64,000 nt of DNA from Lactobacillaceae bacterium (lineage in GTDB: Bacteria; Pseudomonadota; Alphaproteobacteria; RF32; CAG-239), in contig JAISVX010000001.1 of assembly GCA_031271345.1 (NCBI GenBank), positions 1 to 64,000 of the forward strand. Reading direction: 5' to 3'. Positions 25,501 through 53,280 of this stretch are shown piece after piece. Each line of letters begins with the position of its first letter. Position 1 is the stretch's first letter. Under the pieces are notes generated by a model, which saw only the letters and a list, made by a program, of their open reading frames with translations, made no database searches and was not told the DNA's origin. The translations under genes and the position numbers were made by a program.

Positions 25501-25975
25501 CAATCGGCATCCATTCCATAGAAATATCGCAGGTTTCTTCGCCGCGCAAAGTTCTGTTGGTACAGCCGTCTTTGTATTCAAACCCGTCAAAAGGAGGTTC
25601 CGCAAGCCTAACGGATATAATTTTAATCGTCGCTTTTCCGTTTGTGCCTAATGTCAGAACATTTTTGGCATTTGTACCCAAAACAACCTGACCCATAACA
25701 ATAGGGTTGGGCGTTGCGGTAAGAGGGCTTTCTCTTTCGACTAAGTCGCCAAATTCAATTGTTGTATCTAAAGCATTGCCGGTATCCGTAAGAGACAGAG
25801 CATCATCATTTTCGGTAAACATCGGGTCTTCATATTCGTCCCCAACATCACCGCTGCTCAGCAACAGCAATACGCCTAATAAAAATAACATAAAAGAAAC
25901 TATACCAACCGCAAGAATTATGCGGTTGGTTTTTTTTACATAGTTCTCAGAATGTGTTAAAACTTCTTTACTCAT
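22562..25975 (-). CDS. VirB10-like N-terminal half: membrane anchor, Ig-like domain and repeat array (VirB10N)
   Basis: A 1137-residue protein encoded between virB9 and the VirB10 C-terminal gene. A short cytoplasmic segment and one membrane helix (about 17-41) give the VirB10 N-terminal topology. A periplasmic domain (about 70-190) resembles Ig-like choice-of-anchor/ASH domains (L-T-L-G-T-N-G-K-A; C-T-N-R-T-L-R-G-E-E-T-C). From about 215 to the end run some fifty 17-residue units such as N-V-I-G-Y-V-N-A-D-G-T-V-V-D. No VirB10 barrel is present. ATG overlaps the virB9 stop by 4 bases. It looks like the inner-membrane half of a divided VirB10; long repeats in VirB10 homologues are known from DotG and CagY. 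Confidence 0.65.
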   Translation of the reverse strand: MSKEVLTHSENYVKKTNRIILAVGIVSFMLFLLGVLLLLSSGDVGDEYEDPMFTENDDALSLTDTGNALDTTIEFGDLVERESPLTATPNPIVMGQVVLGTNAKNVLTLGTNGKATIKIISVRLAEPPFDGFEYKDGCTNRTLRGEETCDISMEWMPIVAINVQNNFIITWHETNLSASNAKSEKITVDGSAVKREDCNFCEPLPGAATATTSSERRAISPNGELLGSIDADGYVRDANGNIIGRVNNSGLIVDNDGNIIGVAENRRLVLDEFGNVIGYVNADGTVVDADGNIIGRVLPDGTVVDLAGNVIGRAIEAGYVYDADGNIIGRVMPDGTVVDLDGNIIGRVNANGEVVDEFGNVIGHVTKPGRVAIDENGNMLGVVMPNGAVVDTNGDVVGYLNENGDVVVDETIGAAGMQRRLALDANGNVIGYIDENGNVVDFNGNIIGKMLEDGTLVDANGNVIGKAGDLVSLALDADGNIIGFIGQDGNVYDLNGNVIGIVDADGNIISTVRRKIGSLVDTSLIPINPKGEILGTVLNNGFVENADKQTIGKILSNGLIRDTSGAKVIGKLIRGGLVIGYGCKNLGYLEKDGKIVKGNKDTSLKVMFNGIVNDNAGRYAGGIAKIGKVYDNTCTLLGEVGTDGIVKNAAGAYVGCLNPDGTVLNERGDIVGAVAKEGIAVSYDGDYLGRVSSDNLIMSGAMLPIGCVGIYGEVFDRAGSYIGRVAENKYAYDLDGNFINMVGENGKVPALGQPDAKVLINGIVANSENEIIGFTEEEVAPIVNAGGKIQGYIFPDGNAYNNKGVSIGKIHGDGLSFYNRQPGAPLRKGQVVDFSGKTLGLVAYDGSVISKFGENLGTVDAKGKHFSSKGEYRGAVVRRGVAIGYDGSYIGYVVSDGSVIDLEGKKQGVVTADGKILDTGNAIIGEVISENILTDIWGNYKGRMNSLGDVIDLKNDIVTAVLPGGSTDKGMSILRRGIISDFGGNVVGSVAPDGKVIDTSNVEIGRMLPDGNVISNSGRLIGELIDGDIVIDNADKFAGYVSFDGRIISDDGSVIGRYISGGLAIDNNESILGRIYKIGATILGNDGKYIGRLAPNGTVVDMQGRNIGYLKNNGSFVDLDKKISGYALQEVAKNRRN
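24355..25333 (-). repeat. Block of highly regular 51-bp coding repeats
   Basis: The first ~19 units of the VirB10N array are much more alike than the rest, at both protein level (G-N-I-I-G-R-V-x-P-D-G-T-V-V-D) and DNA level (recurring TTGCC.TC.GCGTC patterns at ~51-bp spacing). Units further along, and nearly all in VirB10C, are diverged. Confidence 0.75.
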
Positions 25976-27567
25976 TGGGTCCTAACTACACTACAAAATA
26001 CACCGTTTCTTCCAAGTCTGCTGCACACTCCGTCGCCTTCGTCAAGGGTTTTAACTGGTCCAATTCTTAAATGGAACAATTCTTTTCCTTGACCATCGGC
26101 TGGCGTATCAACAGAATAGAAGGGCTCATATAACGACAATATGTCCGAGTATCTATTTGATAAATCGTTCCATAATGTCTCTAAATTGTTAACATTGGCA
26201 TCTGTTCCAAGCTCGATGGATATGTTAGAGCCGGAATCTGCAAAACCCGCTCCATATCCGTATCTGCCGTCTAGTCCAGCTCCCGAACCAGCTCCTTGCG
26301 AACCTTGCGAACTTCCGCTAATTCTTTGCATTCTTGAATAATCCACACCATCAAACGCTCCGGCATTAGAAATATTGCCATAATCGGCTCCTATGCCGCC
26401 TCCGCCGCTGAATGAACCGTCAAATCCGCTGCCTGCGCCACCAGCGCCGCCGCTTCCCTGACCGCCAAATCTTCCGCCAGCGGCTCCGCCTGAACCGCCG
26501 TTAGCTCCGCCAGGAAGAGGAGGAGGAACGTCCCATGTCGCGTCTTCAAAATCTGTGGCATAAGTTTGCAGCTCCAGACCTTCCGCATCCGAACGACGCA
26601 TTTTCAAGCATATAATTCTTTTGCCGCTGCGAAGAACCATATCTCCAACGGCTTCAACGATTATAAGTCTGTTATTTGGACCAGTCGTTCTAAATCCGAC
26701 CGGAACTTCTATTCTTTCAACAATCAAAGTTACAATAGGTCTTTGAGTCATATTTAATGCTTTTTCACCCAAATCAATATAAGTGAAAATATCGTCTCTC
26801 CATACTCTTTCAGGAGCCATAACCACATCATCAGGGTTTGGAACATAAATCTCAATGTCAAATCTCATTTTTGAAGGATCTAAAGGAATATTTTTTATCC
26901 AGTCTGCTTTTTGAAATCTTTTTGTATATGTAGAATCTGCCGAGTGAGAAGACGAATTTTTAGTAAAATTTCCGCCGCCAGTCGAGCCACCTCCTCTGCC
27001 TGCGCCGCCGCTGCCGTTTGGAGCGTCAATAACATCAATATCGATGATTGAGTTTGTTAATCTTTCAGAGTTAACGCCTTCGCTTCTAACGTAAAACACA
27101 TAACGATTTCCCGAGCGTCCAAATATAATTATGTTGGTATCGACACCAACGTTTGAACCTCTTCTTGGATACAATAAAATTGTGTTCGGACCTGAAATTT
27201 GTCCGTCAAATGTAGCATTATCACCTATATAGATGTCTTCAACAAGTTCCCACTCCGGGAAGTTAACCAATGTGAGCATACCTTCGCGAAGACGAATTGG
27301 AAGCACCAAATCCTGGGACCAATAATATTTAGAATACGCCGGTTTTGATTGTCCTTCACCCAAATTCTGCAAAGGGTCAAGCCAAGCGCTCTGCGTCATA
27401 CCCAAAGAGTTAAAACCCGCATAACCCATATTCATCGGCATATAGTTACCCTGACTTTGATCTGCATTTTGGTCCAGATTGTCCATGCCTACTTGTGCAA
27501 AAGCAACATTTGAAACCGTCAGTACAAATGAAATGCACATTATTCTATTTATTATTTTTAAAACCAT
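25972..27567 (-). CDS. virB9: VirB9/TrbG-type core protein with C-terminal SPOR-like domain
   Basis: A 531-residue exported protein. ATG 27567 is preferred to GTG 27579, which sits on top of the AAGG site. Signal peptide to about residue 24 (A-F-A-Q). The N-terminal VirB9 domain has N-T-I-L-L-Y-P-R-R and N-R-Y-V-F-Y-V-R (about 130-170); the C-terminal VirB9 domain has P-E-R-V-W-R-D-D-I-F-T-Y-I-D (about 250) and N-R-L-I-I-V-E-A-V. A Gly-rich linker follows, and the final ~50 residues (F-H-L-R-I-G-P-V-K-T-L-D...L-G-R-N-G-V-F-C-S-V-V) match the SPOR peptidoglycan-binding pattern. VirB9 builds the outer-membrane ring with VirB7 and VirB10. The SPOR fusion is not part of the usual family. Confidence 0.82.
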   Translation of the reverse strand: MVLKIINRIMCISFVLTVSNVAFAQVGMDNLDQNADQSQGNYMPMNMGYAGFNSLGMTQSAWLDPLQNLGEGQSKPAYSKYYWSQDLVLPIRLREGMLTLVNFPEWELVEDIYIGDNATFDGQISGPNTILLYPRRGSNVGVDTNIIIFGRSGNRYVFYVRSEGVNSERLTNSIIDIDVIDAPNGSGGAGRGGGSTGGGNFTKNSSSHSADSTYTKRFQKADWIKNIPLDPSKMRFDIEIYVPNPDDVVMAPERVWRDDIFTYIDLGEKALNMTQRPIVTLIVERIEVPVGFRTTGPNNRLIIVEAVGDMVLRSGKRIICLKMRRSDAEGLELQTYATDFEDATWDVPPPLPGGANGGSGGAAGGRFGGQGSGGAGGAGSGFDGSFSGGGGIGADYGNISNAGAFDGVDYSRMQRISGSSQGSQGAGSGAGLDGRYGYGAGFADSGSNISIELGTDANVNNLETLWNDLSNRYSDILSLYEPFYSVDTPADGQGKELFHLRIGPVKTLDEGDGVCSRLGRNGVFCSVVRTQ

Positions 27568-27580
27568 TACTCTATACACC

Positions 27581-40123: not shown

Positions 40124-40241
40124 AATTGACCCCTTTTAAAAGCTGATTCTAACGCAAAGATTTTTTTATGCAACAAAAAAGCTATTGTTTATAGTTAATA
40201 AAACATTTTTATGAAAATTAAGTTAAGGAATTTAAAAAAGG

Positions 40242-40275
40242 AAACAGCTACCCACCATAAAGGGGATAGCTGTTT
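40242..40275 (-). terminator. Terminator of the inserted gene
   Basis: AAACAGCTA and TAGCTGTTT pair with an inner CCC/GGG stem; on the minus strand CCTTTTTT follows. It lies 20 bases past the gene ending at 40296. Confidence 0.8.
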
Positions 40276-40295
40276 CACAAACGAGTATGAAAAGG

Positions 40296-41150
40296 TTACT
40301 TCTTAGGTACATCATTGACCCAAGTTCTTAGGCTTTCGACCCCTGACTTACTACACATAAGCCACAAACCATCCCTTTTTTCTATGTAGGAATATTCGTA
40401 AGGTACAAACTGCTGGTGTTCCACATATTTCTTGCCATCTTTCATCCAGATTGCAAGTCCATAAGTGCCATACCTTTTGTATCCATCCACTTCATCCATA
40501 ACAATAAAAAACCAGGCTCCTTGCCTATTAAAGTCTTCTACTGTTGAAAGATTTTCGAAAGTCTTCGCTGTAAATAACACTTTTCCATCGACGATCAAAT
40601 CCTGTTTACCTCTCTCGTTGGTCCGAATTTCGAACTTTGCATGAGACGGAGCCAAAGAGCTAAGCTCTGCAGCTTTTGCGGTTGCTCTCCTTTGCTTGTT
40701 AAGCGTAGGGTTAAAAGCACCGTTTTTCTCTGCCTGCTCCATAAAGAAGTTGGCGTTAACGCCTTCCACCTCTTTTTCGATCAGAGTTTCCGCATCGTAG
40801 AATTTAGGCTCAGCACCTGCTTTTTCCACCACACGGATAACATCGCCGACCACCGAAGCTTCAGCGAATTCTTGCTTGAAAAGGAAGCTGCCGGTTTCAT
40901 CGCAAAGCTTGAAAGTACCGTTCTTCGTTTCCAGCACGAACGTTTCGCCGTCCGCAGTAGAGATGTGAACATAGACCTTTTCCTGAACAAGCTTACCGCC
41001 GACCTCGAGTCCGTAATAGTTACCAGAGTTGTCCGATACCATATAGGCCGAACCTTTGAGAGCCACGCGGGTTTGTCCGAACAGTGAATTAGCCGAGAAC
41101 ATCGTAACGACCATGATCACCAAAACCGAAATGAAATTTTTCGTCTTCAT
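40296..41150 (-). CDS. Exported protein of Bacteroidota-like character, inserted in the virB operon
   Basis: A 284-residue secreted protein of unknown function. ATG 41150 is chosen because a clean signal peptide starts there (M-K-T-K-N-F-I...L-F-G-Q, cleavage about residue 26); the longer frame is implausible. The mature part is beta-rich (D-G-E-T-F-V-L-E-T-K-N-G-T-F-K-L; K-R-D-G-L-W-L-M-C). The start is preceded by AAACAAATAATT with no Shine-Dalgarno site, unlike all neighbours, and codons are visibly more GC-rich. The M-K-T-K-N-F / F-G-Q signal style is common in Bacteroidota. It has its own promoter and terminator. Transfer is inferred; WG-repeat-like proteins are an alternative family. 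Confidence 0.6.
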   Translation of the reverse strand: MKTKNFISVLVIMVVTMFSANSLFGQTRVALKGSAYMVSDNSGNYYGLEVGGKLVQEKVYVHISTADGETFVLETKNGTFKLCDETGSFLFKQEFAEASVVGDVIRVVEKAGAEPKFYDAETLIEKEVEGVNANFFMEQAEKNGAFNPTLNKQRRATAKAAELSSLAPSHAKFEIRTNERGKQDLIVDGKVLFTAKTFENLSTVEDFNRQGAWFFIVMDEVDGYKRYGTYGLAIWMKDGKKYVEHQQFVPYEYSYIEKRDGLWLMCSKSGVESLRTWVNDVPKK

Positions 41151-41211
41151 AATTATTTGTTTTTTAGATTGTTTGCTTGTAAAACGGAATAAATAATAAA
41201 ATGTACTTTTA

Positions 41212-41239
41212 AGTATATTATAAAAAAAAATTTTGTCAA
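41212..41239 (-). promoter_or_regulatory. Promoter of the inserted gene
   Basis: On the minus strand TTGACA (41239-41234) and TATACT (41217-41212) are 16 bases apart, about 62 bases before the ATG at 41150. Confidence 0.5.
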
Positions 41240-41273
41240 AACTTTTTGATAAAAATCTTACAAATAATATTTT

Positions 41274-41304
41274 AAGGGGCAAAACCATCAAAGTTTTGCC
41301 CCTT
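41274..41304 (-). terminator. Hairpin after virB2c
   Basis: AAGGGGCAAAAC and GTTTTGCCCCTT form a perfect 12-bp stem with a 7-base loop, followed on the minus strand by an AT-rich tract without a clean T-run. It separates the pilin genes from the inserted gene and may give differential expression of pilins over the rest of the operon. Confidence 0.7.
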
Positions 41305-41330
41305 AGATATGTACTTTAACCTATTAAAAC

Positions 41331-42533
41331 TTATTGACCATTCCTTAGTCTTGCGTTCATATCTTCTTCCATTCTTTGACGCATAGCATCCTGAGCCGCC
41401 TGCTGGGCTGCCTGGCGCTGAGCTTCCTCGGCCGCCCTCTGAGCCGCCGCCGCCTCTCTGTTGCTCACTCTGTTGCCGCCGCCAGTCTGAACGCCCTCGA
41501 CACCCTGACCGATAGCATTTGTATTTCTTTCAATATTTTTATCAATTCTATACGCCGTATCCGCCATGTTATTGCCCGCGTCAATGATTGTGCCGCCAGC
41601 CCTGATTAACCCCTTAAGGCTTCCATCGCTGCTTTTAATCGCATTTTTAATTCGGTCTTTTTGGGCGCCAAGATTCTGAAGCGCATATTTTCCGCTTTGA
41701 AGAATGTCATTGCCTGCCCTAACCGCCGCTATCGCCGCTTTTGCCGAACCCTTAACATCGCTCCAGCTCCATTTTTCATCGGCTCCTTTGCGACCATCGC
41801 CAGTTGTGTTGCCAGCGCCAGAACCATTATTACCCGAACCGCCGCCCGCATTATTGCTGCCCGTACCGTTAGCATTATCTCCAGAACCGTCTCCGCCGCC
41901 GTTGCCGCCGTTTACTTCCTCATTTATACCTTCTTTAAGCTTATCGGAAGCCAACGGGTCATTATCCAGCCCTTCTTGAATTGTTTCTTCCAAACAGTTG
42001 TCGCCGCAGTCTTCTTTATTCAGGCTGTTGGAAGACCCCTCGGACAATATGTACGTACTGGGCAGAAAATTGCCAAACTTTAAGCTGTACGTGCTTTTAC
42101 TGCCCGTAAAATATTCGATAAACGGCGCCATCATCGACACAAGGAACAGGGCAAATCCCAACTGAGCCAAGTGCTTAAAGCTTATTTTTCCAAAAATCGC
42201 GGTGAATGTAAAAGCAATCAAACCAAAACCGGCGATTATATAAACCAACACGCGCAAATCCGCCAATGTAGTCGTTGCTTTACATGCTATCAATAAGAAA
42301 GGATTGCCTTTATAGCTGCCGCACGCATTGCCGCCGATGTTGAGACCCGATCCGACTGAAGTCGTTGCGCCACCTGTTTCATTTGAGGTTTGCGTAGACT
42401 CATTTTTTGTTGCGCTAAAACCACCTTCTGTCTCCGCTACCGCGTCACTAATAAAAACATCCATGCTCATAAAAGCAGAGCAAAAGACTACGAGGAGTCC
42501 CAAAACCAAAAATTTTTTACTTACTACTTTCAT
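41331..42533 (-). CDS. virB2: VirB2-like protein with long C-terminal extension (paralogue c)
   Basis: A 400-residue protein. ATG 42533 has AAGGAG 8 bases upstream and opens a signal peptide (A-V-A-E, about residue 33). The VirB2/TrbC-like core (about 70-150) has two hydrophobic helices with G-F-G-L-I-A-F-T-F-T-A-I-F-G-K between them, as in the two shorter pilins. A Gly/Asn/Asp-rich linker (about 190-260) and an Ala/Gln/Arg-rich helical tail follow. Ordinary VirB2 is ~120 residues, so this is probably not a simple pilin; a cap, base or anchoring subunit is possible. Confidence 0.72.
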   Translation of the reverse strand: MKVVSKKFLVLGLLVVFCSAFMSMDVFISDAVAETEGGFSATKNESTQTSNETGGATTSVGSGLNIGGNACGSYKGNPFLLIACKATTTLADLRVLVYIIAGFGLIAFTFTAIFGKISFKHLAQLGFALFLVSMMAPFIEYFTGSKSTYSLKFGNFLPSTYILSEGSSNSLNKEDCGDNCLEETIQEGLDNDPLASDKLKEGINEEVNGGNGGGDGSGDNANGTGSNNAGGGSGNNGSGAGNTTGDGRKGADEKWSWSDVKGSAKAAIAAVRAGNDILQSGKYALQNLGAQKDRIKNAIKSSDGSLKGLIRAGGTIIDAGNNMADTAYRIDKNIERNTNAIGQGVEGVQTGGGNRVSNREAAAAQRAAEEAQRQAAQQAAQDAMRQRMEEDMNARLRNGQ

Positions 42534-45354: not shown

Positions 45355-46038
45355 ATGATGAAAGAATGCTTTGAAAAAATAAAAACAAACAAAAAGATAC
45401 TGATTGTAGCTTGTTTCGCTTGTTTATTTATGATAGCAGGTTGCGCCGGTTCAATTATGCAGCCGGCATATAGTGTTCCTGAGGACAGCGCTTGCGACGA
45501 TTTTGGCGCCCCTAGAAACGCCAATGGAGAATGTGTGGATAACGGCGAGTTCGTAAGTTATACTCAAACATCCGCTCAATACAGAGAATATGGCGAAAGA
45601 ACACCCAGAGATCAATATGTAACTCAAGCTGGCGCCGGAAATAATATTTCAGCAGCTATCCCTCCTAGCATTGAAGAAGAAGTTATGGATTATGAGGATC
45701 AAATCAGCATGACCGACAGTTCTAAAGACGGAATGGATAACGATTACGACAGCGGAACAGCTGATGATCCAGTTGAAGACTGGTTGGCGGAAGAAGGTCA
45801 AACTTTAAGAAACGTTCTAACTGAGTGGAGCGAAAAAGCGGGATGGCGCTTAGTTTGGAATACCAACCGTAACTACAATATTACTGCGGGCGCAATGTTT
45901 AGAGGTCGCTTTGCAGATGTAAGCTCTGCTCTTATCAGGGCTTTTGCTAGAGCAAGACCTGCTCCTATAGCAACTTTTTATAAAGGTAACCGCGTCTTAG
46001 TTGTTGAGACTATGGAGGATGAAAATGCGTATAACTAA
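45355..46038 (+). CDS. TcpQ/PilL-like pilus lipoprotein
   Basis: A 227-residue lipoprotein: signal with lipobox I-A-G-C (about residue 25), a variable Tyr/Asp-rich linker, and a C-terminal TcpQ domain (about 140-222) with L-R-N-V-L-T-E-W-S-E-K-A-G-W-R-L-V-W and G-R-F-A-D-V-S-S-A-L. In type IVb pili, TcpQ or the TcpQ domain of PilL helps place the secretin. The secretin gene starts inside its last codons (14-base overlap), which supports the role. Confidence 0.78.
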   Translation: MMKECFEKIKTNKKILIVACFACLFMIAGCAGSIMQPAYSVPEDSACDDFGAPRNANGECVDNGEFVSYTQTSAQYREYGERTPRDQYVTQAGAGNNISAAIPPSIEEEVMDYEDQISMTDSSKDGMDNDYDSGTADDPVEDWLAEEGQTLRNVLTEWSEKAGWRLVWNTNRNYNITAGAMFRGRFADVSSALIRAFARARPAPIATFYKGNRVLVVETMEDENAYN

Positions 46039-47665
46039 TTTATTTAAATTCAGCTTAGGAATAATAGCTATAGCTATAATTATTTCCTGCTCTCTGTCAA
46101 CCAAGATGGAAGCTACGGTTGAACGTGATGTAGAGGCGACTTCCGCTTTAAAAGAAAAAGCTAAGGTACCGGCTAAAAAAGCCGTTGACGATGTTGTAAG
46201 AGTTAAAGACGATATCTGGCTTGGCGACAAAAGCGTTGTGGAGTTTGAAGGCGAGCCTTTGCCTAATTATCTAGAAACTAAAGATGGTGTTACTCTTGTC
46301 AGCAACAGACCAATTTCTCTATATGAAATTGGCGACATGATAAATAAAGTTACTTCACTTAAAGTTAGATATGCTTCCAAGCTGGAGCAAGACGCTTTCG
46401 CTGCGGCGGCTGACAATGCTCCTACTATGGAAAACATGAATGCCGGATGGGCAGAGCCAAGCAAAATGCTGGTTTCATACAAAGGTCCTCTAAGCGGTCT
46501 TTTAGATGAAATTTCATCTCGTTTCGGAATTTGGTGGAAATACGAAAACAGAGAAATATATTTCTACAAGTATATTACTAAAACTTTCGTTTTATACAGC
46601 CTTCCAACAAAACAATCTGTAAATACGCAAATCGGCGGTCAGTCAACAGGTTCCGGCGGCGGCGGTTCGTCATCAGTATCTTTGACAACTACTGCGGATT
46701 TAGAGTTTTGGCAATCAGTTGATACGGCTATCAGCTCTATGGTTGACGCCGACGCTAAATTCAGCATTGACAGCGCAAGCGGTGTCGTTTCATTAACCGC
46801 AACTCCCAGCGATATTAAAAAGGTTGCGCAGTATATTAACGAGCAAAACATGAGATTAGCCCGTCAAGTGGCGGTAAGCGTAAAGGTTTTCCAGGTAACT
46901 ATTTCAGACTCTGATAAATATGGATTAGACCTTAGCGCTGCGTTCAATGACGGAACTGCGGTAGAAACCGAGAACGGCTTAGTTAAAACCGGCGGCTCTT
47001 TGCTTGGAATGGCAAGCCCTAGAGGAGCTTTAGGCGATGACATTGCAAACAACTTAACAATGTCACTCCTACCTGGAAACTGGGACATTACAGCTTCTAT
47101 TAAAGCTTTGTCACAACAGGGAACCACAAGCCTAGTAACAAGCGGTACTGTAACTACTTTAAATAATAAACCGGCGCCTATTCAGGTTGTACGTAAACAA
47201 AACTACATCTCTGAAATTACTAAAACAAACAGCGGCGGCGATGCTAACTACTATGACTTGTCTGTAGAAACCAAAGAAGTTGAAGTTGGTTTCACATTAG
47301 ACGTATTACCCCGCGTTCTTGAACATGGAAGAGTTATGTTAATGTTCAACCTAACATTATCCGACTTGTTAGACTTGGAGAAAGTTATTATCGGTAATGA
47401 GGATGACGGTCAATACATTCAAAACCCAATTATTGAATCTCGCGGTTTCTCACAAGAAGTCGCTATGAAATCTGGAGAGTCTTTGGTTCTTACAGGTTAT
47501 GAGAAAACTAATAACCAAGTCAATAAAACCGGCGTCGGTTCGGCGGACAATCCTTGGCTGGGCGGCTCTGTCGTGGCTAGCAAAGACAGAAACGTATTGG
47601 TTATCATTTTAACTCCTGTAATCCTAAATACTCCATTAACTCCAGAATCTAGAATGGATATGTAG
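46025..47665 (+). CDS. pilN: Type IVb pilus secretin lipoprotein, PilN family
   Basis: A 546-residue outer-membrane secretin. ATG 46025 is 6 bases behind GGAGG; ATG 46019 touches it. Lipobox I-I-S-C lies near residue 19. N0/N1-like domains (about 70-190) are followed by a Gly/Ser-rich insert (G-G-G-G-S-S), an N-domain with A-V-S-V-K-V-F-Q-V, and the secretin core ending L-V-I-I-L-T-P-V-I-L. This order matches PilN of the R64 thin pilus. Outer-membrane pore for the pilus. Confidence 0.88.
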   Translation: MRITNLFKFSLGIIAIAIIISCSLSTKMEATVERDVEATSALKEKAKVPAKKAVDDVVRVKDDIWLGDKSVVEFEGEPLPNYLETKDGVTLVSNRPISLYEIGDMINKVTSLKVRYASKLEQDAFAAAADNAPTMENMNAGWAEPSKMLVSYKGPLSGLLDEISSRFGIWWKYENREIYFYKYITKTFVLYSLPTKQSVNTQIGGQSTGSGGGGSSSVSLTTTADLEFWQSVDTAISSMVDADAKFSIDSASGVVSLTATPSDIKKVAQYINEQNMRLARQVAVSVKVFQVTISDSDKYGLDLSAAFNDGTAVETENGLVKTGGSLLGMASPRGALGDDIANNLTMSLLPGNWDITASIKALSQQGTTSLVTSGTVTTLNNKPAPIQVVRKQNYISEITKTNSGGDANYYDLSVETKEVEVGFTLDVLPRVLEHGRVMLMFNLTLSDLLDLEKVIIGNEDDGQYIQNPIIESRGFSQEVAMKSGESLVLTGYEKTNNQVNKTGVGSADNPWLGGSVVASKDRNVLVIILTPVILNTPLTPESRMDM

Positions 47666-47690
47666 GAAAAAGACTACTAAAGGAAAAAGA

Positions 47691-49010
47691 ATGCAAGACG
47701 ATCCAAACATAAATGACGACTACGCGGAACAAGGCTATCTTGAGGATAGCCCGGTTCCCAATATGTCGCAAGAAGATCAAGGCGAAAGAGCTTGGGGAAC
47801 CAAAATTATTGTGGACGGCAATACTTACGCAACAAGCTTGTTCTGGCAGCCGCTGCAAAACGCCGAGGATCCATTCACAGAAGTTGAAGAAGCTTCAGAA
47901 GGCATTTTAGAAGGCGCGGACTTATTTTGTATTAAACAAGGCAAAGCGCCGCAATTTGGTATTTGTGTTTCTCATGAGGGATATAAGAGCGGCGAACAAG
48001 TTGCTGCCATATCTTTATCTTCGGCACTATCAGATGTTTCTTCTTTTGTTGCTGTATTTAAGGTTAACAATGGGTGGTGGTATACCTGCGTCAGAAACGA
48101 TATTATATTATCCGACGGCGATATGCTTTTTCTTAATGAAGAAGAAGCAAAAGAACAGTTTATGTCTATGCTTGCCGTACCTGACTGGGGACATAAAATT
48201 GCTCCGGAGGAATGGGGAATTGCCGATACTGAGTACCCCAGCCTAGAAGAATTATTCCAAAAAGGTTTAACCGCAAAGCTTCAAAAAATTAAAGCTTTAA
48301 GAGGCACAAAGCTTCTTATGGTTATCGGCGTTTCCGTTGTCGTGGGTTTATGGCTGTTATCAAGCATTATTGACGCCATTTTCCTTACTCCTCCCAAGAG
48401 ACCTATTATCGCGCCTGTAGCACCTAAAGTTATTGAAGAGGTGGAGATACCGCCGGAAGTTAAGCCTTGGGAAAAAATCCAAGACCCTGGCGAAATAATG
48501 GAACAATGCCTGAAAAATACTTTGGCTTTGGTTAGAATTATGCCTCCAGGATGGTATATCGGCGATGTTAACTGCCTAAGTTCAGGCATTTCGACAACAT
48601 GGTCCAGAGAGATTGGAAGAATATCTTGGATAGATAAGGCGTTAAGCAAGTCTGGACTTAACTTTGGAAGCAAAGGTATAACAGATGACGGCAATAATTT
48701 AATTGCATCTTTACCTTTTGAAAACATAAAAGAGATTACTTCTCCTCCTACTAGAAGTGATATTGACTTAAAAAATACTTTAAATAATATGTTCCAATCT
48801 ATCGGACAAGATGTGAACTTAGCCAGCTTTTCATTTACATCTCCTCAGGGAAATGTGTACAGATCTGTTAAGTTTAGGTTTACATCAGGAAATAATCCCG
48901 CGGTCTGGAGCAGTTTGTTAACAAAATTTTCAGGACTTGAAATTACTATGATAAAATACAGCACCGTTAGTGAAACGTGGGAATATGAAGGAGCAATCTA
49001 TGTTTTATAA
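47691..49010 (+). CDS. pilO: Pilus accessory protein, PilO family
   Basis: A 439-residue bitopic protein: cytoplasmic N-domain (1-200), one membrane helix (about 206-228, L-M-V-I-G-V-S-V-V-V-G-L-W-L-L) and a periplasmic C-domain (M-P-P-G-W-Y-I-G-D-V-N-C). Length, topology and place between pilN and pilP match type IVb PilO. An AAAGGA site precedes ATG. Its 3' end overlaps pilP by 11 bases. Confidence 0.78.
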   Translation: MQDDPNINDDYAEQGYLEDSPVPNMSQEDQGERAWGTKIIVDGNTYATSLFWQPLQNAEDPFTEVEEASEGILEGADLFCIKQGKAPQFGICVSHEGYKSGEQVAAISLSSALSDVSSFVAVFKVNNGWWYTCVRNDIILSDGDMLFLNEEEAKEQFMSMLAVPDWGHKIAPEEWGIADTEYPSLEELFQKGLTAKLQKIKALRGTKLLMVIGVSVVVGLWLLSSIIDAIFLTPPKRPIIAPVAPKVIEEVEIPPEVKPWEKIQDPGEIMEQCLKNTLALVRIMPPGWYIGDVNCLSSGISTTWSREIGRISWIDKALSKSGLNFGSKGITDDGNNLIASLPFENIKEITSPPTRSDIDLKNTLNNMFQSIGQDVNLASFSFTSPQGNVYRSVKFRFTSGNNPAVWSSLLTKFSGLEITMIKYSTVSETWEYEGAIYVL

Positions 49011-50436
49011 TGTTTTAAAAAATTTAAGCAAAGTTACTTTGGCATTAACTCTGGTACTTTTTGGAGTTAACTCAAGCTTTGCTCAAGGAACAGTATCTCT
49101 TGCAGACGATATTGAAGATGAACTTGGAATAGATAGCAATGTTCCTGACGAAATCTCTTTGTTTGACCAGGAGGACTTGGAAGATTTAGATAGTGGATTA
49201 ATTCAACCAGTATCAAGAAGAGTTGAGACAGTAACAACGACAACAACCGTTACTGAAAATGTCAACGACGTTACTGAAAATGTCAACGACAACGCTCCAG
49301 AAAGCACAATTTCTCTTTCTGACGAGGGTCTTGACTTAATCGAAAACTATAACAATTCAAATCCATTTCCAACTTCAAAAGCTCCAGTCGTGATTGATGA
49401 TAATTTTGGCGAAGATTTACTAACTCAAATCGATGATAAATTATTCTCGCAAATGTCTGACATTGAAAAGCAAACAGCTTTGCTTACTTTGGAATTAAGA
49501 CGCGAAAGAATTAAAACTGAAATCGACGCTGTCCGCCTGCAAAGACAAAAAGCAATTGAGCTTGAAGAAGAAGCAAAAGAACTGAAAGCTCGCGAAAGAG
49601 CGGAATGGGAAACCGAACAGCAAAGAAAACTAATTGAAGAGCAGGTTAAACTTCAAGAAGAGAATGTTAGGCTGGAAAAGTTAAGACAAGAGAAAGTTCT
49701 CAACGCATATAAAAATGAAATGCTTAAAACAAATCAAAAATGGGTTGACGCTCTTAACGGCGCATACAATGAAGCCCGCGCAGTTGAAGCAGAAAGAGCC
49801 GAGCATCTTGAAGAATTTAAAACTAAACTAACCAGCTTGGCAAGTTTAGCGCAGACTTTAGGAAATGATGCGATTACGGCAAAAGAAAACTATGATAGAG
49901 AGATACAAAACCTGCAAACTCAAATCTCTATTTTATCTTCCAGAGTTGAAACTTTAAGCAAAGAAAAAGCAGAAGGCTATGCTGCCCAAGGCGGTGTGCT
50001 TGATGTTGACAATCCTTTCGCAAACCCTGCTTTTGGAACGAATTCTGATCCGGAAATGAAGTTGGGCGACGAGTACTTGGTTTTAGAAATTAGAGGAAAA
50101 GGCGAAGATATGACCGCAAAACTCTCTAATAAAACCGGCTCGGAAGCTTTCTTTGTAAGAAAAGGCACTAAGTTGAAAAGCGGTCATATAATTGAAGAAA
50201 TTACGCCAACTTTCATTCGCGCAGATAAAAAAGGTGAAAAAGACTTTATTTATTTCTCTGCCGGCGGCGTTCTTGATACAGAGCCAGACGCTGATGTAAA
50301 AATCAAAAACGTGCCTATGGGTAGAAATGACGGCGACGCAGCTTCTTCTGCAACACGCGGAACAGGCTATGCCGGCAGCGAAGCTCCAAAGGCTTATGTA
50401 AGCGACAGCTTTATTGAACAAATGTTTGCAGAATAA
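49000..50436 (+). CDS. pilP: Pilus accessory protein, PilP-like
   Basis: A 478-residue exported protein. ATG 49000 has AAGGAG 6 bases upstream. Signal peptide ending S-F-A-Q (about 30), an acidic segment with T-E-N-V-N-D duplicated, a long coiled coil (about 150-310), and a C-terminal beta domain (about 350-430; L-V-L-E-I-R-G-K-G; V-R-K-G-T-K-L-K-S-G-H) of the GspC/PilP type, which contacts the secretin. Longer than usual for PilP because of the coiled coil. Confidence 0.68.
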   Translation: MFYNVLKNLSKVTLALTLVLFGVNSSFAQGTVSLADDIEDELGIDSNVPDEISLFDQEDLEDLDSGLIQPVSRRVETVTTTTTVTENVNDVTENVNDNAPESTISLSDEGLDLIENYNNSNPFPTSKAPVVIDDNFGEDLLTQIDDKLFSQMSDIEKQTALLTLELRRERIKTEIDAVRLQRQKAIELEEEAKELKARERAEWETEQQRKLIEEQVKLQEENVRLEKLRQEKVLNAYKNEMLKTNQKWVDALNGAYNEARAVEAERAEHLEEFKTKLTSLASLAQTLGNDAITAKENYDREIQNLQTQISILSSRVETLSKEKAEGYAAQGGVLDVDNPFANPAFGTNSDPEMKLGDEYLVLEIRGKGEDMTAKLSNKTGSEAFFVRKGTKLKSGHIIEEITPTFIRADKKGEKDFIYFSAGGVLDTEPDADVKIKNVPMGRNDGDAASSATRGTGYAGSEAPKAYVSDSFIEQMFAE

Positions 50437-50445
50437 TAAAAGCTT

Positions 50446-50473
50446 TTCCAGGGCGGCAAAAGCTGCCCTGGAA
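50446..50473 (+). other. Strong hairpin between pilP and pilQ
   Basis: TTCCAGGGCGGC pairs with GCTGCCCTGGAA across an AAAA loop (one G-T pair). No clear T-run follows, so it is more likely a processing, stability or attenuating structure than a full terminator. Confidence 0.6.
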
Positions 50474-50502
50474 GAAATTTATTAATTTTATGGTGCGTTA
50501 TT

Positions 50503-52143
50503 ATGGCTGAGACAGGAACTACTTCTGAACAACAAAAAACTCCTCAAACTCCTGTAGAGAAACCAAAAGAAACAGCTGCGGGACGTATTGATCAATATTT
50601 TGCAAACGGAAATAATCTAATTACATTACAAGGATCTTCTCTGGTCATTGACGATGACACGAGAAGATTGCTTGCATTATTTGAAGACGGTCAGTTTCTT
50701 GTCTCGGAAAACCATAAATTTGACGGTCGTGTTCTAAGCTTTGAGGTTCTGGCAAGAAAAAGAAAACTGCCGATTAACAAACCCAAATATATTTCAATCA
50801 ACGAATTAAACACTGTTTATGCGATTGCGGAAAGAAGAGCCGCAAACTTGGATATGGGCAATGACAACCTTGAAAATATCCAAATGCAGAAAGACTTTGT
50901 AAACGTTGTCGCAAGAGCGGCGCAGCAAAAAGTTTCCGACGTTCACATTGTTGTCGCCAACAGCACGCAAATTTTCTTCAGAGCCAACGGTACTATGGTT
51001 CTGGAAATGGAATACAACAAAGACTGGGGCGAAGCATTTGTCCGCGCGGCATTTGCGTCTGCGGATATTTCTGACTCCAACTATGCTCAAAACGAGTTTC
51101 AGGCTGCGCAAAAGCTTGGTTCGACCCCGCTTCGCGGTTCTAAAGGCAAACTGATGCTGCCGCACAATGTTTTGGCGATACGTTTACAGTTTAATCCTAT
51201 CGCGTTCGGCTCGCAATATCTGGTTATGCGTCTTTTGTATGCCGATGACAACCCGGACGGCAGCGGCGACTTAGAATCTCTAGGTTTTGGACAATATGAA
51301 CTTGATCTGTTTTATCGTTTGAGAGCTATTCCTATCGGACTTAATATTATTGCCGGTCCTACAGGTTCGGGAAAAAGTACGACATTGCAAAGAAACATGA
51401 TTAGGCTTCTTCAAGATAAAAAATATGAATGTAACTTGATTACGGTGGAAGACCCGCCCGAGTACCCAATTCCCGGCGCAAGGCAAATGCCGGTGACTAA
51501 CGCAAATAATGAAGAAGAAAAAGACGAGCAGTTTAATAAAGCGTTGTCCGCTGCGTTGCGTTCCGACCCGGATATTATGATGGTTGGCGAGATTCGTTCC
51601 CTCGCCGCCGCAGAGTTGACATTTAAGGGCGCGCTTTCCGGACACAGCATGTGGTCGACACTGCACGCGAACAGCGCTCCTGCGATTATTACCCGCCTTA
51701 GGGATATGGGGGTTAAACCTTATGTGCTTAACGACCCTGAAATTATCAAAGGACTGATTTCACAGCGTTTGTTCAGAACACTATGTCCTCACTGCAGAAT
51801 TCCCGTTAAAGAAAGAATGGAAGAGCTTAGCGTTAAAAGACTTAAGAAATCATTGGGAGACTTTGGTATAGAAAATACATACGTAAAAGGTCCCGGATGC
51901 AAGTTCTGCGGCGGAAAAGGCGTTAAAGGCAGAACCTGCGTCCCGGAAATAATTATGCCGGATTCAACTTTTCTTGAGCTTTTAATAAGCGGTGAAACAA
52001 GAAAAGCTATAGAATACTGGACAAACGATTTAAATGGACGCACATTAAAAGAAGCGGCTATTGAAAGAATGTTAAAAGGTCTTATCGATTTAGATGAAAT
52101 TGAACGCTGGTGCGGTCTGTTAGACCAGCGTCCAATATATTAG
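50503..52143 (+). CDS. pilQ: Type IVb pilus assembly ATPase, PilQ/GspE family
   Basis: A 546-residue ATPase. S-D-V-H-I (145-149) and Walker A G-P-T-G-S-G-K-S (285-292) are followed by T-V-E-D-P, the Walker B region I-M-M-V-G-E-I-R and the His box S-T-L-H-A. Two Cys pairs, C-P-H-C and C-K-F-C, form the zinc element of extension ATPases. It drives pilus polymerisation together with PilR. Confidence 0.9.
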   Translation: MAETGTTSEQQKTPQTPVEKPKETAAGRIDQYFANGNNLITLQGSSLVIDDDTRRLLALFEDGQFLVSENHKFDGRVLSFEVLARKRKLPINKPKYISINELNTVYAIAERRAANLDMGNDNLENIQMQKDFVNVVARAAQQKVSDVHIVVANSTQIFFRANGTMVLEMEYNKDWGEAFVRAAFASADISDSNYAQNEFQAAQKLGSTPLRGSKGKLMLPHNVLAIRLQFNPIAFGSQYLVMRLLYADDNPDGSGDLESLGFGQYELDLFYRLRAIPIGLNIIAGPTGSGKSTTLQRNMIRLLQDKKYECNLITVEDPPEYPIPGARQMPVTNANNEEEKDEQFNKALSAALRSDPDIMMVGEIRSLAAAELTFKGALSGHSMWSTLHANSAPAIITRLRDMGVKPYVLNDPEIIKGLISQRLFRTLCPHCRIPVKERMEELSVKRLKKSLGDFGIENTYVKGPGCKFCGGKGVKGRTCVPEIIMPDSTFLELLISGETRKAIEYWTNDLNGRTLKEAAIERMLKGLIDLDEIERWCGLLDQRPIY

Positions 52144-52155
52144 GGAGAAATACAG

Positions 52156-53280
52156 ATGGCAAAAGATCAAAAACGCAGGTCGGCATCATTAAACAAAGCA
52201 ATGAAAAGCCTTAATACCGTTGAGGTTTATTATGCAAAATTGATATGCAATTTTTCAAGCAGCGCCAGACTAAAAGTTTTTAAGAAAATCGCCGCATTAA
52301 TGAAGAACAGATTTTCTCTCATGAATGCTCTGGACATGATTTATGACGGTTTTTCCAACGGCGGTAAAAACGCTGGCGAGCCTATGGCGATTGCAATTGC
52401 CGCATGGGCTAAAGCCCTGCAAAACGGTTTGCCTTTTTCCGAAGCCTTAAAAGGATGGGCGCCCGACCGCGAAAGACTGATGTTGTCCGTGGGCGACGTT
52501 TCAGACCTTGAAAACGCTATTCTTAACCTGATTAAAGTTACGGAAGGCTCAACAAAAATGATTAGACCGATTGTCGGTGCGATAACTTATCCAGGCTTCC
52601 TGGCAATGGTTTCGGTTTTGATTATTTACGGTATCGGCGTATACATGGTGCCTCCAATGGTTGAGGCCGCTCCGGGCGTCAGGTGGAGAGGAACGGCAAA
52701 AAGCCTTTATGATGTGTCTGTGTGGATTGAAAACAACTGGATAATCGCGTTCTCTATCCTGCCAGCTCTATTTGTAACTATATATGCTACAATTGGTATA
52801 TGGACAGGAAGAATTCGCGCGGCTTTTGACGGTCTCCCTCCATGGTCTTTATACAAGGTGTTTGTCGGTATCAGCTGGCTCTTGGCTTTATCTGCCTTAA
52901 TTAAGGGCGGTACGCCTGTATCAATTGCCTTGAGATCTTTACGCAAAGACTCAACAAGATACCTTAAAGAAAGAATTGATAAAACTTTAGTATTTGTAAA
53001 CAATGGTGACAATTTAGGTCAGGCATTGATGAAAACTGGGCTTAACTTCCCTGATAAAGAAGTGGTTGCGGACCTTAAGATTTATTCAGAGTTAGACAAC
53101 TTCGAAGAAGCATTAGACAACTTAGCCAATTCATGGCTTGATGAATCTGTTTACTTAATTGAACAAAAAGCGTCTATTTTGAACATGGTCGCGCTGCTTT
53201 CCGTGGGCGGAGTTATCGCTTGGGCGGTGTTGGGCGTGTTCGCGATGCAAGACCAAATTACCGGTTCTATGGGAATGTAA
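52156..53280 (+). CDS. pilR: Type IVb pilus inner-membrane platform, PilR/GspF family
   Basis: A 374-residue GspF-like protein with the duplicated cytoplasmic helical domain (F-K-K-I-A-A-L-M-K-N-R-F-S-L and W-L-L-A-L-S-A-L-I-K-G-G) and three membrane helices (about 143-165, 195-215, 345-365). It transmits ATPase movement to the pilin. 12 bases follow pilQ; 1 base separates it from the next gene. Confidence 0.88.
   Translation: MAKDQKRRSASLNKAMKSLNTVEVYYAKLICNFSSSARLKVFKKIAALMKNRFSLMNALDMIYDGFSNGGKNAGEPMAIAIAAWAKALQNGLPFSEALKGWAPDRERLMLSVGDVSDLENAILNLIKVTEGSTKMIRPIVGAITYPGFLAMVSVLIIYGIGVYMVPPMVEAAPGVRWRGTAKSLYDVSVWIENNWIIAFSILPALFVTIYATIGIWTGRIRAAFDGLPPWSLYKVFVGISWLLALSALIKGGTPVSIALRSLRKDSTRYLKERIDKTLVFVNNGDNLGQALMKTGLNFPDKEVVADLKIYSELDNFEEALDNLANSWLDESVYLIEQKASILNMVALLSVGGVIAWAVLGVFAMQDQITGSMGM

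Follow-up and report, generated by a model that had tools for sequence, protein, structure and literature searches.

Between the virB2c and virB3 genes of the window (the whole stretch of 64,000 nucleotides that was analysed) lies a gene of foreign codon use, flanked by hairpins and followed by a conserved virB3 leader, whose relatives are found in Bacteroidales and which is absent from related genomes. It is likely that this is a single Bacteroidales-like gene, acquired horizontally and encoding a Sec-exported cargo protein, which was inserted at a tolerant boundary between transcription units. According to this model, a gene of Bacteroidota (Bacteroidales-like) would have been acquired by an alphaproteobacterium with a small genome and a chromosomal VirB-type secretion locus, and would have landed between virB2c and virB3. 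The gene would be expressed from the promoter-like site at 41239-41212, and its product would be exported by the Sec pathway, with signal peptidase I cleaving it ahead of Gln26. Once mature, the protein (about 259 residues) would be beta-rich and soluble and would reside in the periplasm or on the surface, as cargo and not as a part of the secretion system. The coordinates of the features are collected in Table 1.

Table 1. Features of the inserted gene, its surroundings in the window and its relatives.
Feature	Position	Strand	Basis
Inserted gene, 284-aa exported protein of Bacteroidota type	40296..41150	-	ORF; two Bacteroidales relatives; atypical codons
Signal peptide, residues 1-25, predicted cleavage before Gln26	41076..41150	-	sequence; Gln26 invariant in three-sequence alignment; cleavage inferred
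Residues 32-98, WG-repeat-like beta segment (possible, weak)	40857..41057	-	profile search; hhalign 14%
Promoter-like site TTGACA-16-TATACT, 11/12 positions	41212..41239	-	62-89 bases before start
Hairpin, 14 pairs, between virB2c and inserted gene	41273..41305	.	z -3.83, 2/200 shuffles as good
Hairpin then T run, terminator of inserted gene	40241..40276	-	-23.6 kcal/mol, z -6.45, 0/200 shuffles as good
virB3-side edge of insertion, TTAACTTAATTTTCATAAAAA	40206..40226	-	identical base for base in same-genus genome
virB3 leader, conserved promoter-like (TTGCAT ... TAGAAT)	40143..40182	-	conserved across genera
virB3-like gene, 96 aa	39833..40123	-	
virB2c, VirB2-like with long C-terminal extension	41331..42533	-	
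Bacteroidales relatives	G105:C61:38906-39673; G535:C35:128427-129194		full-length similarity

The cassette delimited by the initial annotation (40242-41304) does run from hairpin to hairpin and encloses one reading frame of 284 codons on the minus strand, located between virB2c and the virB3-like gene, with virB4 following virB3. The encoded protein starts MKTKNFISVLVIMVVTMFSANSLFG|QTRVALKG. Its Bacteroidota-like origin, proposed at the outset, is supported, as no convincing relatives other than two Bacteroidales proteins were found. Among 393 genomes from the order of a Bacteroidales MAG, a sole convincing match was obtained, in genome G105 (E 3.5e-36), and a search within 101 genomes of the family of G105 returned G105 itself and G535 (E 1.3e-27). 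The BLASTP comparison recommended for the 284-residue protein thus finds its matches in Bacteroidales, with 36% identity over 244 residues (E 1e-40) and 29% over 276 residues (E 3e-31). Four other matches at E <=0.01 among the 393 genomes are all weak; two of them (L164/L169 and L165/L170, Bacteroidales, E 1.6e-4 and 0.004) were rejected as relatives, since by eye they sit in FeoB-like ORFs, and the remaining two, also from Bacteroidales, have E values of 0.005 and 0.009. Ribosomal RNA was located in one of the four genomes examined for it; the 16S of G105 is at most 87.0% identical to 26 near-full-length Bacteroides/Prevotella-type matches, which fits a member of Bacteroidales outside the Bacteroides/Prevotella-type family. 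When a profile built from the three sequences was run against the class to which G105 belongs (395 genomes) and against the Bacteroides family (399 genomes), no additional true member came to light. As just two carriers emerged from five Bacteroidota searches (32, 393, 101, 395 and 399 genomes, in overlapping sets), the protein family is rare in Bacteroidota too.

On the host side, the same profile found no relative in 151 other genomes of the own family, apart from five weak matches, all within one genus; both of the two that were read are TldE/PmbA-type peptidases, one of them confirmed by Pfam, and were discarded. In 190 genomes of the class the window gene stands alone, with no member in the 189 other sampled Alphaproteobacteria, a set that overlaps with the 151. 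The proposed comparison with related genomes shows the gene to be absent from the same-genus genome G001 and, those weak matches aside, from the other genomes of the family. A foreign origin was to be refuted if the best matches were confined to Alphaproteobacteria and shared this synteny, and that outcome did not arise. Sequence searches of Pfam, NCBIfam, PHROGs and PDB gave nothing above chance for the inserted protein, the phage, plasmid (tblastn) and viral collections contained no relative, and neither did a peptide-pattern scan of 84,980 species genomes, which detects close relatives only.

The inserted protein and those of G105 and G535 are alike in full-length similarity, in a signal peptide followed by Q-x-RVALKG and in the order of segments, with Q26 and R28-G33 invariant in the three-sequence alignment. 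They differ in small internal indels and in about 45 C-terminal residues, carried by both relatives and missing from the inserted protein, among which is the segment ...KWV.NKS...WTLQKQEEK. Unlike the inserted gene, the genes of G105 and G535 lie outside virB loci: the ORFs listed in both neighbourhoods include no virB genes, and the two genes stand beside what we take to be mfd or a ThiF-like gene and close to further genes for secreted proteins. Since the only relatives found are in Bacteroidales, Bacteroidota is the most likely source of the gene, and since they are distant, the actual donor is not among the sequences found. The direction of transfer is deduced from the absence on the host side, the codon use and the start context rather than from a tree, the alignment comprising three sequences.

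The codon usage was compared with a background of 22 stretches of the own genome (484 kb including the window, 414 ORFs) and with a Bacteroidales background of 119 loci around 16S genes, in which three loci titled as other phyla (L106, L129, L135) were kept; the ORF sets used for codon and signal-peptide statistics follow a simple longest-ORF rule and not gene calling. The GC-richer and atypical codon choice ascribed to the inserted gene was borne out: it is the second most atypical of the 414 ORFs by synonymous-codon z (-5.8), ranks third by Bacteroidales-versus-own codon likelihood and ninth by GC3 (0.493), and is placed only 23rd by the plain mean log-probability. It is not, as had been claimed, unlike every neighbour in GC3, the values of virB2c (0.478) and virB2b (0.483) being close to its own.

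The absence of a Shine-Dalgarno site was also verified, the upstream bases being CAAACAATCTAAAAAACAAATAATT. A Shine-Dalgarno-like string precedes 225 of 357 own ORFs, as against 56 of 377 in the Bacteroidales set; the start context of the inserted gene thereby fits Bacteroidales, most of whose ORFs lack such a string. The signal peptide was described as of Bacteroidota style, and this holds in so far as the predicted cleavage site exposing Gln26 is kept in both relatives; the glutamine trait occurs, however, in native genes as well. Two more genes of the window (25972-27579 and 48970-50436) have a predicted Ala|Gln cleavage, and several neighbours are likewise without a recognisable Shine-Dalgarno site at the start assigned to them, so that the gene does not stand apart from all its neighbours in these features either. 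A crude predictor, whose list misses the inserted gene itself, places glutamine after the cleavage site in 8 of the 56 signal-peptide-like ORFs of the own genome, including two in the window, and in 25 of the 75 from the Bacteroidales set. The published Q-value in Bacteroidetes averages 71% (PMC5837995), which indicates that the predictor undercounts this trait. The Q-rule substrates of signal peptidase I in Bacteroidetes (PMC5837995) resemble the inserted protein in a predicted cleavage exposing an N-terminal glutamine, and differ from it in that its host is not a member of Bacteroidota and the native genes of this host show the trait at a lower rate. The glutamine signature alone was rejected as proof of a Bacteroidota origin, because native genes of the genome carry it.

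Of the 33 genomes in which virB3 was sought, 21 gave a match, counting the own genome, and 19 virB3 loci besides the window were read: 16 from the same family, one from the same order and two from the same class. Fifteen of the 16 family loci could be assessed, G010 being left out because it stops at a contig edge. A virB2-type gene directly precedes virB3 in 11 of these 15 genomes, among them G001, in which virB2c and virB3 are separated by a gene-free gap of 141 bp. In the other four the junction differs: a small secreted-type gene stands before virB3 in G007 (L029, 158 aa), G003 (L035) and G017 (L033) (about 150 aa each), and unrelated genes precede it in G005 (L032), presumably SecA-like, PpiC-like and a third. 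According to the three-sequence profile, none of these junction genes is the gene of the window. This hints that the virB2-virB3 junction is a variable place in the family. In the last virB2-like gene of this locus, the length of the C-terminal extension varies widely (L024, L026, L027, L028, L041 and window 41331-42533), with totals of 367 to 1073 aa in the family, unusual for a pilin-type protein.

In the virB3 leader, the window and G001 have TTAACTTAATTTTCATAAAAA and GCTTTTTTGTTGCAT..AAAAATCTTTG.GTTAGAATCAG in common, and its TTGCA...TAGAAT part was found again in other genera. Scored on its own, the leader sequence is no better a promoter than shuffled versions of it (163/200), and the case for a promoter consequently rests on conservation. 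In several relatives a hairpin with a T run can be seen by eye just ahead of the leader block. The virB2 genes and those from virB3 onward are probably two separate transcription units, and because virB3 keeps its conserved promoter-like leader, the inserted gene lies at a probable unit boundary and the operon is not broken, which would explain why the insertion was tolerated. The claim that the gene splits the canonical order consequently stands for the gene order and fails for the operon, the site resembling a transcription-unit boundary.

The promoter and terminator attributed to the gene itself are represented by the site at 41239-41212 and the hairpin at 40241-40276. The former is of the ordinary sigma-70 type. 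No other site within 8.5 kb agrees in 11/12 positions, 40 shuffles contain 0.075 such sites on average, and when the 180-bp leader alone is shuffled 500 times, a match as good turns up in seven cases. The promoter consensus of Bacteroidota is TTTG/TAnnTTTG, and no such element was found upstream of the inserted gene. The hairpin at 41273-41305 is a probable terminator, terminator-like on both strands; it could be of host or of insert origin, and ending the virB2 unit is an equally good role for it. No integrase, transposase or terminal repeats were found at the edges of the insert, where there are only hairpins with virB genes as neighbours, and no clear target-site duplication was seen by eye.

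Other histories of the gene were weighed against acquisition from Bacteroidota. Given the low identity to the Bacteroidales relatives (29-36%), the donor may have been some other phylum outside the sample, a phage or a plasmid, with Bacteroidales as one more recipient; the rarity of the family in Bacteroidales (two of 101 genomes in the carrier family, none of 399 in another family) points the same way. This scenario is nevertheless unlikely, because the phage, plasmid and viral collections and, for close relatives, the scan of species genomes gave no match, and the signal peptide, start context and codon use all suit Bacteroidales. G007, G003 and G017 also have genes for small secreted proteins in or close to the junction, which would suit a native origin, the gene being an accessory part of the virB locus that evolves fast, was formerly common throughout the family and has disappeared from most of its members. 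These genes are, however, unmatched by the profile, relatives outside the own genome occur only in Bacteroidales, and the codon use is the second most atypical of the genome sample, all of which makes a native gene most improbable.

That a Bacteroidota read was joined to the contig during assembly or binning is hardly credible. A stretch of about 1 kb does look foreign and the contig is known from the assembly alone; yet both flanks are the expected neighbours, the virB3-side edge is identical base for base to the same-genus genome, and a chimera would have to re-enter at the same 141-bp gap. Moreover, the contig comprises 391,563 bases, and the genome, in five contigs, is 99.77% complete with 0.37% contamination. 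It was also considered that the virB2-virB3 junction is a recurrent landing place recruiting foreign exported proteins, and that the Bacteroidota protein now serves VirB in the periplasm or at the surface, as a partner or as a substrate; this is very unlikely. Horizontal acquisition of a Bacteroidales-like gene is the most likely history, a clear but unremarkable instance of something that is well known to happen.

Judged by its sequence, the inserted protein is probably Sec-exported and periplasmic. In the VirB/T4SS locus of this bacterial family the flanking virB2-like, virB3-like and virB4 genes are conserved, also in the window, whereas none of the T4SS families, the VirB/Trb/Tra models among them, gave a match to the inserted protein; it is probably not a type IV secretion component. 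The location of the related genes in both carriers, near secreted-protein genes and with no virB among the listed ORFs, argues against a secretion-system role as well. The N-terminal third aligns weakly with WG-repeat proteins (PF14903, WG_beta_rep): hhalign gave a probability of 14% (E 0.002, a weak match), and three of the four weak non-family matches of the profile in the 395 genomes of the class of G105 are WG-repeat proteins, the fourth containing stop codons. PF14903 itself matched none of the three family members at E up to 1, and the N-terminal half is perhaps WG-repeat-like. The single-sequence AlphaFold model is poor (mean pLDDT 46.2, pTM 0.30). In the literature search, none of the matches listed carried the WG-repeat term, and no paper joining gut Alphaproteobacteria or RF32 with type IV secretion was found.

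The general importance of the finding is modest. It documents how the gene for an exported protein has probably passed between Bacteroidota and an alphaproteobacterial lineage whose habitat appears to be of the gut type, with the insertion landing where the locus of a secretion machine tolerates it. It further suggests that the virB cluster of the host family comprises two transcription units, and brings to light an uncharacterised Bacteroidales protein family reachable only via whole-genome search.

Elsewhere in the own genome, the most atypical of the 414 ORFs by codon z encodes a NUDIX-domain protein (L196:3041-3745), and codon-atypical ORFs were also noted at L195:4946-5398 and L189:10157-10615. 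The codon-atypical cluster at L185:975-7152, with a resolvase-like and an integrase-like ORF recognised by eye, is likely a mobile island. A lipoprotein-like ORF (L184:15577-16041) has foreign codon usage and no relative among 178 Bacteroidales genomes; a general influx of Bacteroidota genes is not supported, given that this second codon-atypical gene is without Bacteroidales relatives. Adjoining the virB locus, the plus-strand region 45355-53280 of the window, with matches to TcpQ, secretin, PilO, T2SSE and T2SSF, is a type IV pilus or type II-like system.
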